Assembly (NCBI RefSeq): GCF_020042665.1
Contig: NZ_CP083376.1
Coordinates: forward strand, 2,764,001-2,828,000
Direction of reading: 5' to 3'
Source: Pseudoxanthomonas sp. X-1
GTDB taxonomy: Bacteria; Pseudomonadota; Gammaproteobacteria; Xanthomonadales; Xanthomonadaceae
DNA length: 64,000 nt
Below are positions 22,467 to 28,844 of this stretch, one piece after another. Within the stretch, counting starts at the first letter, position 1, and the number at the start of each line of letters is the position of its first letter. Under the pieces are notes generated by a model. That model searched no databases and had not been told where the DNA came from. It was given only the letters and a program-made list of their open reading frames with translations. Made by a program: the position numbers and the translations under genes.

Positions 22467-22543
22467 GGGATTCGGGATTCGGGATTCGGGATTCGGGATT
22501 CGGGATTCGGGATTCGGGATTGGGGATTGGGGATTGGGGATTG
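22467..22543 (+). repeat. Heptamer tandem repeat, 7 x GGGATTC then 4 x GGGATTG
   Basis: Seven exact copies of GGGATTC (22467-22515) run directly into four exact copies of GGGATTG (22516-22543), then a degenerate GGGATGA. The unit length and perfect copies suggest slipped-strand copying. It lies 67 bases upstream of the PspC-domain gene start. Confidence 0.95.
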
Positions 22544-22599
22544 GGGATGAGGATGGGCGCGGTGCGGGCTTGGGATGCTTCAACCGCGATGGTCTGCCC

Positions 22600-26386: not shown

Positions 26387-27622
26387 ATGGACGCCTCTGC
26401 GCAGGCACGGCGCGTGGTGGTCACCGGCATGGGCGCGGTCAGCGCGCTGGGCCTGGGCGCGCCGGCGCTGTGGCGCGCGATGCGCGAGGGCCGCAGTGGC
26501 ATCGCCGCCCTGCCCTCGCCCGATCCGCACAGCCGCCTGAAGATGCGGGTCGCCGCGACCCTGCCGGGCTTCGCCCCGAAGGCGGCGCAGCTGGGCGGTA
26601 TCGCCCCCGGCCAGCTCGACCGCATGACCCAGATGGCCCTGGTCGCCGCCCAGGAAGCGGTGACCCAGGCCGGCCTTGGGCCCGATACCGCGCGCCGCGC
26701 GCGTTGCGCGGTGGTGGTCGGCACCGGCGTCGGTGCCGAGCTCAGCCGCGACGAGCAGTCGCGCCGGCTCTATCGCGAACAGGCCGAACGCCTGCATCCG
26801 CTGACCATCGTGCGCAGCATGAACAACGCCGCGGCCAGCCAGATCAGCATCGCCTTCGGCCTGCGCGGTCCGGCCTTCGCCGTGTCCAGCGCCTGCGCCT
26901 CGGCCAACCATGCTCTGGCCCAGGCCGCGCTGCTGGTCCGCCACGGCCTGGCTGACGTGGCCATCGCCGGCGGCAGCGAGGCCTGCCTGAGCCTGGCCCT
27001 GATCCGCGCCTGGGAGGCGATGCGCGTGGTCAGCGACGACACCTGCCGGCCGTTCTGCGCGCAGCGCAGCGGCCTGGTGCTGGGCGAAGGCGCCGGCATG
27101 TTCGTGCTGGAAAGCGCGGCCCACGCCGCGGCACGCGGCGCGCGGCCGCTGGCCGGGCTGGCGGGATTCGGCATGAGCGCCGATGCCGGCGACATCGTCG
27201 CGCCCAGCGTCGACGGCATGGCGGCGGCCATGCGCCTGGCGCTGGAGGATGCCGGCCTGGCGCCGGACCGGATCGACTACGTCAACGCCCACGGCACCGG
27301 CACCCAGGCCAACGACCGCTGCGAGACCCGCGCGCTGCGGCAGGTGTTCGGCGCGCACGCGCAGGCGCTGGCGGTCAGCTCGACCAAGGCGGTGCACGGC
27401 CACGCGCTCGGCGCCGCCGGCGCGCTGGAGCTGGTGGCGGCGATCGGCGCGCTGCGCGAACAGGTGGTGCCGCCCACCGCCAACTTCCTCGATGCCGACC
27501 CGGATTGCGACCTGGACTACGTGCCCAACCGGGCGCGCGCCCGCCCGGTGCGCGCGGTGCTGAGCAATTCCTTCGCCTTTGGCGGGCTCAACGCGGTGAT
27601 CGCGCTGCGCGCGGTGGACTGA
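26387..27622 (+). CDS. Beta-ketoacyl-ACP synthase (KAS II type, NodE-like partner of the preceding ACP)
   Basis: 411 residues. Full thiolase-fold ketosynthase: RRVVVTGMGAVSALG, active-site Cys170 in VSSACASANHA, His302 in NAHGTGTQAND, Lys334 in SSTKAVHGHALGAAGA with His339, and the C-terminal NSFAFGGLNAV. It condenses an acyl chain with malonyl-ACP. The pair ACP-ketosynthase, set apart from the fab genes, recalls rhizobial nodF-nodE, which make a special acyl chain; no other biosynthetic gene adjoins here, so the product is unknown. GAGGGG sits just before the ATG. Ends in front of a gene-free gap. Confidence 0.92.
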   Translation: MDASAQARRVVVTGMGAVSALGLGAPALWRAMREGRSGIAALPSPDPHSRLKMRVAATLPGFAPKAAQLGGIAPGQLDRMTQMALVAAQEAVTQAGLGPDTARRARCAVVVGTGVGAELSRDEQSRRLYREQAERLHPLTIVRSMNNAAASQISIAFGLRGPAFAVSSACASANHALAQAALLVRHGLADVAIAGGSEACLSLALIRAWEAMRVVSDDTCRPFCAQRSGLVLGEGAGMFVLESAAHAAARGARPLAGLAGFGMSADAGDIVAPSVDGMAAAMRLALEDAGLAPDRIDYVNAHGTGTQANDRCETRALRQVFGAHAQALAVSSTKAVHGHALGAAGALELVAAIGALREQVVPPTANFLDADPDCDLDYVPNRARARPVRAVLSNSFAFGGLNAVIALRAVD

Positions 27623-28214
27623 AGCGCTCGCCGCCGCGGTCGCCGGCGAGCGGACGGTGCGAACCGCGCAGCCTCGCTCGGCAGGCGGGCATCGGCCGCA
27701 AGGTTCCACGGCGCTGCGCGACGACGTGCGATCCGCCTGGTCATTTTTGTGCCAATCCGCTTGACACGCCTGCCCTGCAAGGCGCTCCTGCGCTTATCCA
27801 CATGTTTGTCCGGAGACCATCCACAGCCCCTGTGGATGAACCGTCGCGCGCTGGTCATTTTTTCGCCATGTCCGGCGGGGGCCGCGCCGCGTCTGGGCGT
27901 GCGCGGGTTATCCACACGCTTGCCCCAGCACTCATCCACACCGGCTGTGGAGAAGCACACGGGGCCGCATCAACGCGTCGAAAGCCGGTTCCACGGCCTT
28001 GCGGGCGGCGGAGCGCATCAGGGCGAGCCGCCGCCGCGGACGCTGTCCATGAATCGCGCGCTGATGCACTGCGGAGACCCGCGCCCGCATCGCCGTCCGG
28101 AATCACGACGCCGCCAGGACGCGCAGCGGAGGCATCCACCATCCCGGCGCGGCATGGAAGCGCGACCGCCGCGCCATCGGACGGCAGTCGGCCCGTTGCC
28201 TTGCCACGCGCGGA
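27623..28214. other. Gene-free gap between convergent genes
   Basis: 592 bases between the ketosynthase (+) and the Nudix gene (-). The left part has a GC hairpin without U-run (CGCTCGCCG 27625-27633, CGGCGAGCG 27644-27652); the middle holds the DnaA-box-like cluster; the right part (27960-28214) shows nothing I can name. Confidence 0.8.
27738..27955. repeat. Duplicated 114-base unit with six DnaA-box-like sites
   Basis: Two diverged tandem copies (from about 27738 and 27852) share the order GGTCATTTTT, TTATCCACA, CATCCACA, then inverted TGTGGA, with offsets of 114-115 bases. Sites: TTATCCACA at 27794-27802 and 27908-27916 (exact consensus), CCATCCACA at 27817-27825, TCATCCACA at 27932-27940, and inverted TGTGGATGA at 27831-27839 and TGTGGAGAA at 27946-27954. 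In copy 1 the second and third sites form perfect arms CATCCACAG / CTGTGGATG with a CCC spacer. dnaA is not nearby. Confidence 0.7.
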
Positions 28215-28703
28215 TCAGAAGCGGCTGAAGCTCCAGGACACCATGCGTCCGTTGCGATACGGCATCACGCCATGGAACGGGCGCGGGTCGCCATCGAACA
28301 CCAGCGGCAGGAAGTGACGATCGCCTTCCCACATGGGCAGCTCGCCGAGGCGCTCGATCGGCGCCCACTCCAGCGTGCCCTCCGGGTTGGAGGTCAGCGG
28401 CGTGCCGGTCCAGGCGGTGATGAGGAAGATGAAGCACAGCCAGTCCTCGCCGTTGCGGCCGAAGCCGGGCCAGCTGATGGTGCCGCGCAGCTCCATCGCG
28501 GTGCATGCGATACCGGCCTCCTCGGCGATCTCGCGCACCATGCCGGCGGCGATGTCCTCGTCGTTCTCCAGCTTGCCGCCCAGCCCGTTGTACTTGCCCA
28601 GGTGTTCGTCCTCGGGGCGCGCGTTGCGGTGGATCATCAGCACCTGCGTGCCGTCGGGCGAGAGCACGTAGCCGAGCGTGCCGGTGATCGGGGTGTAGGG
28701 CAT
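28215..28703 (-). CDS. Nudix hydrolase, MutT/8-oxo-dGTPase-like
   Basis: 162 residues. A perfect Nudix box, G-x5-E-x7-R-E-x2-E-E-x-G, is present in GKLENDEDIAAGMVREIAEEAGI (about residues 40-62). The preceding LGYVLSPDGTQVLMIHRN and the small GLGGK turn match MutT-type 8-oxo-dGTP diphosphatases, which clean the nucleotide pool, though other nucleoside diphosphate substrates are possible. ATG 28703 was chosen. On the coding strand a -10 TACAAT (28735-28730) stands 26 bases before the start. Monocistronic. Confidence 0.92.
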   Translation of the reverse strand: MPYTPITGTLGYVLSPDGTQVLMIHRNARPEDEHLGKYNGLGGKLENDEDIAAGMVREIAEEAGIACTAMELRGTISWPGFGRNGEDWLCFIFLITAWTGTPLTSNPEGTLEWAPIERLGELPMWEGDRHFLPLVFDGDPRPFHGVMPYRNGRMVSWSFSRF

Positions 28704-28844
28704 GGCGGAAGCGAGGCGGTCAAACGCGCATTGTAGTCGCGCCCGCGCCGGCATCATGCGCAGCGCGCGCGGCCGTGGCCGAGCGCTTCTTCGCCGCCAC
28801 GCGAGCCGCGAGGCGGTGTTCGTTGGCGATCCCCGCGCATGCCC

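Follow-up and report, generated by a model that had tools for sequence, protein, structure and literature searches.

What is the function of a duplicated cluster of DnaA boxes that lies between two convergent genes, far from dnaA? This question is raised by a locus of Pseudoxanthomonas sp. X-1, which was analysed within a stretch of 64 kb (the window; C1:2764001-2828000 of a single-contig genome of 4,517,037 bp). A gap of 592 bp (27623-28214), flanked by the converging genes of a beta-ketoacyl synthase and a NUDIX-domain protein (Table 1), contains two diverged units in tandem, offset by 114-115 bp. This duplication had been reported in a first-pass annotation and was confirmed, as all six boxes are present, two of them being exact TTATCCACA, and the locus is indeed far from dnaA, the C-terminal domain of DnaA (ending at 4386579) being encoded 1.6 Mb away. 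Each unit consists, in order, of a 17-bp block A, 39 bp, TTATCCACA (box IV), 14 or 15 bp, nnATCCACA (box II), exactly 5 bp, and an inverted TGTGGAnnA (box I). Block A goes beyond the earlier description, in that the A/T block, with GGTCATTTTT at 27739 (copy 1) and 27853 (copy 2), extends into a near-palindrome of 17 bp. The explanation that we favour, with moderate confidence, is that the element is a tandem pair of lineage-specific variants of the DnaA-reactivating sequences (DARS) of E. coli, the units of which would recharge ADP-DnaA.

Table 1. Features of the element, its neighbours and related loci of the same genome. Positions are those of the window unless a contig is given; R1 is a sequence-only model built from 58 units, both window units being in its training set.
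Feature	Position	Strand	Remarks
Beta-ketoacyl synthase gene	26387-27622	+	left neighbour of element
Unit 1 of tandem DARS-like element	27738..27839	+	model R1 match, E 2.9e-23
Block A copy 1, A/T near-palindrome TGGTCATTTTTGTGCCA	27738..27754	+	starts 79 bp before box II
Box IV copy 1, exact TTATCCACA	27794..27802	+	14 bp before box II
Degenerate box III copy 1, TTGTCCGGA	27806..27814	+	2 bp before box II
Box II copy 1, CCATCCACA	27817..27825	+	
Box I copy 1, TGTGGATGA	27831..27839	-	convergent with box II across 5 bp
Unit 2 of tandem DARS-like element	27852..27954	+	model R1 match, E 2.6e-17
Block A copy 2, TGGTCATTTTTTCGCCA	27852..27868	+	
Box IV copy 2, exact TTATCCACA	27908..27916	+	15 bp before box II
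Box II copy 2, TCATCCACA	27932..27940	+	
Box I copy 2, TGTGGAGAA	27946..27954	-	convergent with box II across 5 bp
NUDIX-domain gene	28215..28757	-	PF00293, E 2.3e-16; element at its 3' end
Solitary unit	G000:C1:2293969-2294071 (L212)	other strand	50 kb from putative dif
Canonical DARS-core locus	G000:C1:971617-971651 (L010 from 1501, L192 from 1018)		upstream of priA; exact ->5<-3<- geometry

Exact TTATCCACA occurs twice in the window, both times in the element, and eight times in the whole genome; since a reversed-pattern control likewise gave eight occurrences genome-wide, the 9-mer itself is not enriched, and what stands out is how the boxes are arranged. The combination TCCACA-N5-TGTGGA was retrieved from only four places in the genome, and the reversed pattern from none. 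These places are the two units of the window, a solitary unit close to the presumed dif site, and a locus beside priA. In each of the six complete genomes of the genus, the pair is accompanied by one such single unit.

A DNA search with the element gave a match in 38 of 81 genomes, strain X-1 included (E <= 0.001), and the 30 loci fetched from this search yielded 58 units. The CCACA of box IV, the CCACA of box II, and the TGTGGA of box I were each found in 58 of 58 units. Boxes II and I were separated by 5 bp in all 58, in a collection that did not require this gap, and boxes IV and II by 14 bp in 48 units and by 15 bp in ten. These counts were taken from alignment columns, an automatic gap tally having misplaced box II on another box-like 9-mer in 12 of the 58 units. 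In addition, 33 of the 58 units, copy 1 of the window included, have a degenerate box (<=3 mismatches) upstream of box II at a spacing of 2 bp, compared with 0.8% of shuffles. The comparison with relatives that the first-pass annotation had proposed showed that the boxes are conserved together with their spacing and orientation, whereas the remaining sequence drifts. Among the 30 loci, identity of the window to the four best-matching relatives was 0.83-1.00 in the boxes, 0.90 and 0.97 in block A, 0.73 in the rest of the element, and 0.43 in the rest of the gap.

DARS were reportedly first described by Fujimitsu et al. in 2009. According to excerpts of PMC5742627, the core common to DARS1 and DARS2 consists of three boxes, spaced alike in the two, with box I opposed to boxes II and III, and in the sequence of E. 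coli MG1655 both cores read ->5<-3<- (boxes as arrows, spacings in bp). The deletion primers in the available text of PMC4585315 confirm which stretch is the DARS2 core; the same text describes boxes I and II of DARS2 as crucial and box III as needed for full activity. On boxes I and II of DARS2, DnaA molecules are described as standing head to head via their AAA+ domains (PMC8682772, in extract). On the other strand, a window unit reads ->5<-14/15<-. The opposed box I/II pair with its fixed spacing of 5 bp is identical in E. coli DARS, in both window units, and in the complete set of units. Box III of E. coli DARS lies at 3 bp, whereas in the units a degenerate 9-mer lies 2 bp from box II and the strong box 14 or 15 bp from it, so that their third strong box sits one helical turn farther out; because of this difference in box III spacing, the window units are not classified as plain DARS.

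An exact counterpart of the E. coli core is nevertheless present elsewhere in the chromosome. Of the 81 genomes of the order, 78, strain X-1 among them, matched the core pattern TTATCCACA-N5-TGTGGATAA-N3-TGTG (<=2 mismatches), and none matched its reversed control. At the locus of strain X-1 (C1:971617), box III lies 3 bp from box II and points the same way, a match that is partly by construction, because the search pattern asked for TGTG at that place. The priA gene was beside the core in 31 of the 50 canonical loci examined, including 20 of 20 from the same family, the loci being only 2-3 kb long. A box-like 9-mer at the place of box IV occurred at 14 bp in one of the 50 and at 15 bp in another one of 50, and none of the 50 canonical loci read showed a tandem partner. 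The core locus beside priA is apparently the canonical DARS of this order. Canonical loci and window units have the box I/II pair, block A, and its distance in common; canonical loci also possess an IHF-like site and a box III spaced by 3 bp but lack box IV, whereas the window units have box IV and neither of the other two. To judge from these sequences, the units and the canonical locus would be two forms of one element, presumably by common descent.

Block A was located at -79 or -80 from box II in 32 of 32 window-type units (best score in a 40-bp scan), a set in which the 5-bp pair is not tested, because the units were collected by means of that pair. One of them (L220, which is L026) is also among the 58 units, and three loose-pattern matches devoid of the other unit features (L215 2238, L222 2919, and L228 1972) were left out. 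Similarly, block A of the 50 canonical loci scored best at -79/-80 in 37 cases, at -68 in six, and elsewhere in seven. What the sequences show is the geometry of the units, its strict conservation, and a block A spacing that they have in common with the loci of exact E. coli core. A strict Fis consensus was present in block A of two of the 58 units, in none of the 16 canonical loci of the genus, and in 18 of 34 canonical loci outside the genus. Block A appears Fis-like in its position and, in many genomes of other genera, also in its consensus. The genome of strain X-1 codes for a Fis homologue (45% identity, E 3.7e-21). The IHF consensus TAAnnnnTTGATW (<=1 mismatch, both strands) was absent from 27623-28214, and a scan of -125 to -95 in one orientation retrieved an IHF site from 0 of 58 units. 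At canonical loci, the IHF consensus (<=1 mismatch) was found at -112 to -99 in 42 of 50 cases, the shifted controls giving 0-5.

The IHF result bears on the chief alternative, which we regard as unlikely, namely that the boxes hold DnaA by titration or promote ATP hydrolysis in a datA-like inactivation, either of which would leave less free ATP-DnaA. Two of the eight exact TTATCCACA boxes of the genome do lie in the element, and box IV is both the best consensus match and strongly kept, as a sink would need. However, datA has an IHF site (PMC5742627, in the part available), whereas none (<=1 mismatch) occurs in the gap, and the box spacings differ. Moreover, pure titration leaves unexplained the fixed 5-bp convergent pair and the fixed distance of block A, which are common with the canonical DARS loci. 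The earlier suggestion of a DnaA-regulatory locus outside oriC holds as far as the sequence goes, but only one of its options is favoured: the 5-bp convergent pair of all 58 units argues for DARS, and the absence from the gap of the datA spacing and of an IHF site argues against titration or a datA-like role.

In the preferred reading of the units as variant DARS, ADP-DnaA on boxes I and II would meet head to head across the 5 bp, and this contact would, as in E. coli, loosen ADP, upon which DnaA could reload ATP. The strong box IV, one helical turn back, and the degenerate box III in between would accommodate tandem DnaA for full activity. Assembly may be aided by Fis, the likeliest candidate, or by a similar bending protein bound to block A at a distance of about 79 bp. 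The sequence relationship of the units to DARS is strong, and from it we infer the biochemical direction of their action, including DnaA binding, ADP release, and Fis as the protein on block A. The units look built like DARS and probably work like DARS. Points against this reading are the degenerate box III, the lack of an IHF site, the rarity of the strict Fis consensus in the genus, the displaced block A in seven of 50 canonical loci, the lack of the pair in eight of 38 genomes of the genus, and the weaker action of E. coli DARS2 when it is moved near terC (PMC5010248).

The position of the element in the chromosome may contribute to its function. A single match with two mismatches to the E. 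coli-type consensus was presumed to mark dif at 2344539. The pair of strain X-1 is located 447 kb to one side of this putative site and the solitary unit 50 kb to the other; the canonical locus lies at 0.45 of its arm. The pair occurs at 0.73-0.78 of the ori-dif arm in six of six single-contig genomes of the genus, and at 0.95 in G043, a genome of another genus; canonical loci occur at 0.19-0.48. The strand of the units is directed toward ori in seven of seven pairs, seven of seven canonical loci, and eight of 11 singles; these relations of position and strand are not independent evidence, because symmetric inversion and common descent can explain them. Being replicated late, at roughly three quarters of the distance to dif, the site would increase the dose of reactivation toward the end of the cycle, and its duplication could compensate for the low dosage of a late region. 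Extracts of PMC5010248 state that E. coli DARS2 works less well when moved near terC, and that datA functions weakly near terC as a single copy, a deficit compensated by a second copy there.

The same observations could point to an architectural element of the terminus half, with DnaA and a nucleoid protein organising or marking late-replicating DNA instead of exchanging nucleotides, an explanation to which we attach a low probability. It would account for the pair at 0.73-0.78 of the arm in six of six complete genomes of the genus and for the strand toward ori in seven of seven pairs and eight of 11 singles, including all seven units of G043. Yet symmetric inversions and common descent keep such relations for any gene, the canonical loci have the same orientation yet lie at 0.19-0.48, and three of the 11 singles point the other way.

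Model R1 matched 55 of 81 genomes at E <= 0.01, a number in which some weak matches represent the canonical locus (as does the only match of G031) and from which weak units can be missing, since the genome search used stricter filters. Tandem pairs were present in 30 of 38 genomes of the genus, in five of 11 from the rest of the family, and in two of 32 from other families, one of these two having the array of five units described below. The pair is not essential, as it is absent from eight of the 38 genomes of the genus, with G003 and G034 being fragmented assemblies. In G025, G026, G033, G031, and G002, the NUDIX gene was present and no such boxes were found in the scanned flank of 1.5 kb. 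In a tree of the 58 units, first and second copies separated only partly; the best clade (support 0.77) was free of first copies and comprised 15 of the 28 second copies. Tandem spacings of 115, 126, 136, and 148 bp resemble steps of one helical turn, but such phasing was unsupported when tested over eight spacing clusters (Monte Carlo p 0.84). An array of five units, with two subtypes alternating, was seen in another family (L213, G059:C24 near 27709-28337). In G004, the whole pair occurs twice, about 2 kb apart (G004:C13:171271-171487 and 173312-173528), near genes coding for a ketoacyl synthase and an acyl carrier protein.

The NUDIX gene adjoins the element in 24 of 30 loci, that of strain X-1 included, which might suggest a transcription-related DnaA/Fis site or a terminator region of this gene. 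This is very unlikely, as the element lies at the 3' end of the gene, the single units and the pair of G024 are located far from it, the pair of G005 is inverted beside it, and no Rfam family reached its gathering score in 27400-28300. The NUDIX gene is not part of the mechanism of the element. The absence of an Rfam match over the same interval also led to the rejection of an RNA element. Least probable of all is a mobile or REP-like repeat carrying DnaA boxes by chance. The several copies per genome (seven in G043, an array of five in G059) would fit such a repeat, but the copy number is low, the neighbouring gene is the same in 24 of 30 loci, and conservation is concentrated in the binding sites. 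Finally, an origin of replication consists of an A/T-rich unwinding element and DnaA boxes, usually by dnaA. The origin-like locus envisaged in the first-pass annotation was rejected, as the gap lacks a strong A/T-rich unwinding element, which that annotation had itself remarked (lowest 40-bp GC 0.525 in the gap versus 0.30 in dnaA-dnaN), dnaA is 1.6 Mb off, and some genomes of the genus do without the element.

Other repeats were seen in and around these loci. Repeats of GGTTCCACGG flank the element of the window at 27702 and 27987, and parS-like palindromes (GTTTCACG-GA-CGTGAAAC) lie between the units in the loci L025, L027, and L028 of relatives; both may be ParB half-sites or due to chance. 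Directly after dnaN, near oriC, L016 (2822-2837) contains tgttccacgtgaaaca, which we take to be parS-like from the parS consensus. A tandem array of GGGATTC (11.7 copies) occupies 22467-22548 of the window.

Taken as a variant of the DnaA-recharging sites of E. coli, which it resembles, the element probably helps to time chromosome copying in this group. The biology of DARS has been described for E. coli and its relatives, as far as the available parts of PMC4245941, PMC5742627, and PMC8682772 go, the last of which compares seven E. coli-proximal species. In the literature searched, which consisted mostly of open-access papers, none was found on DnaA-reactivating sequences in Xanthomonas or Stenotrophomonas. 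Similarly, titles and abstract beginnings on the DnaA box, oriC, or chromosome replication of Xanthomonas and on the DnaA box of Lysobacter, again mostly of open-access papers, contained nothing related. Given that the core pattern occurs in 78 of the 81 genomes from another order, and a second, doubled variant in most sampled genomes of the genus, DnaA reactivation would be older and more variable. This also provides natural variants in spacing, copy number, and position for testing what a DARS needs. A tentative idea is that a second class of DARS evolved besides the canonical IHF-type DARS by priA, consisting of tandem four-box units that lack an IHF site and lie late on the arms, with singles possible nearer to dif. 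Such units could sense the progress of replication, raising ATP-DnaA after the forks have passed most of the chromosome, and their tandem copies would offset the low dosage of late regions.

Among the known systems, E. coli datA resembles the units in being an intergenic cluster of DnaA boxes outside oriC. Excerpts of PMC5742627 describe it as boxes 7 and 2, an IHF site, and box 3, the IHF site being part of datA. In the E. coli stretch concerned, the boxes (<=2 mismatches) are 58, 153, and 3 bp apart. The gap of the window differs in its box spacings and has no counterpart of the IHF site between the essential boxes of datA. DARS1 of E. coli is like the units in having boxes I and II convergent across exactly 5 bp, in being short and intergenic, and in needing no IHF site; indeed, DARS1 works without IHF, whereas DARS2 does not. 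In contrast to DARS1, the units are doubled in tandem and possess an A/T dyad about 79 bp away and an extra strong box 14-15 bp back. DARS2 has the same box I/II pair as the units and a nucleoid-protein-type site on the side of box III, of which block A of the units would be a candidate counterpart. Its sequence contains the IHF consensus at -99 and -83 and the Fis consensus at -137 from box II, whereas in the units a Fis-like dyad lies at -79/-80 and no IHF site is recognisable. The IHF consensus of DARS2 at -99 (IBS2) has the same orientation as that of the canonical loci.
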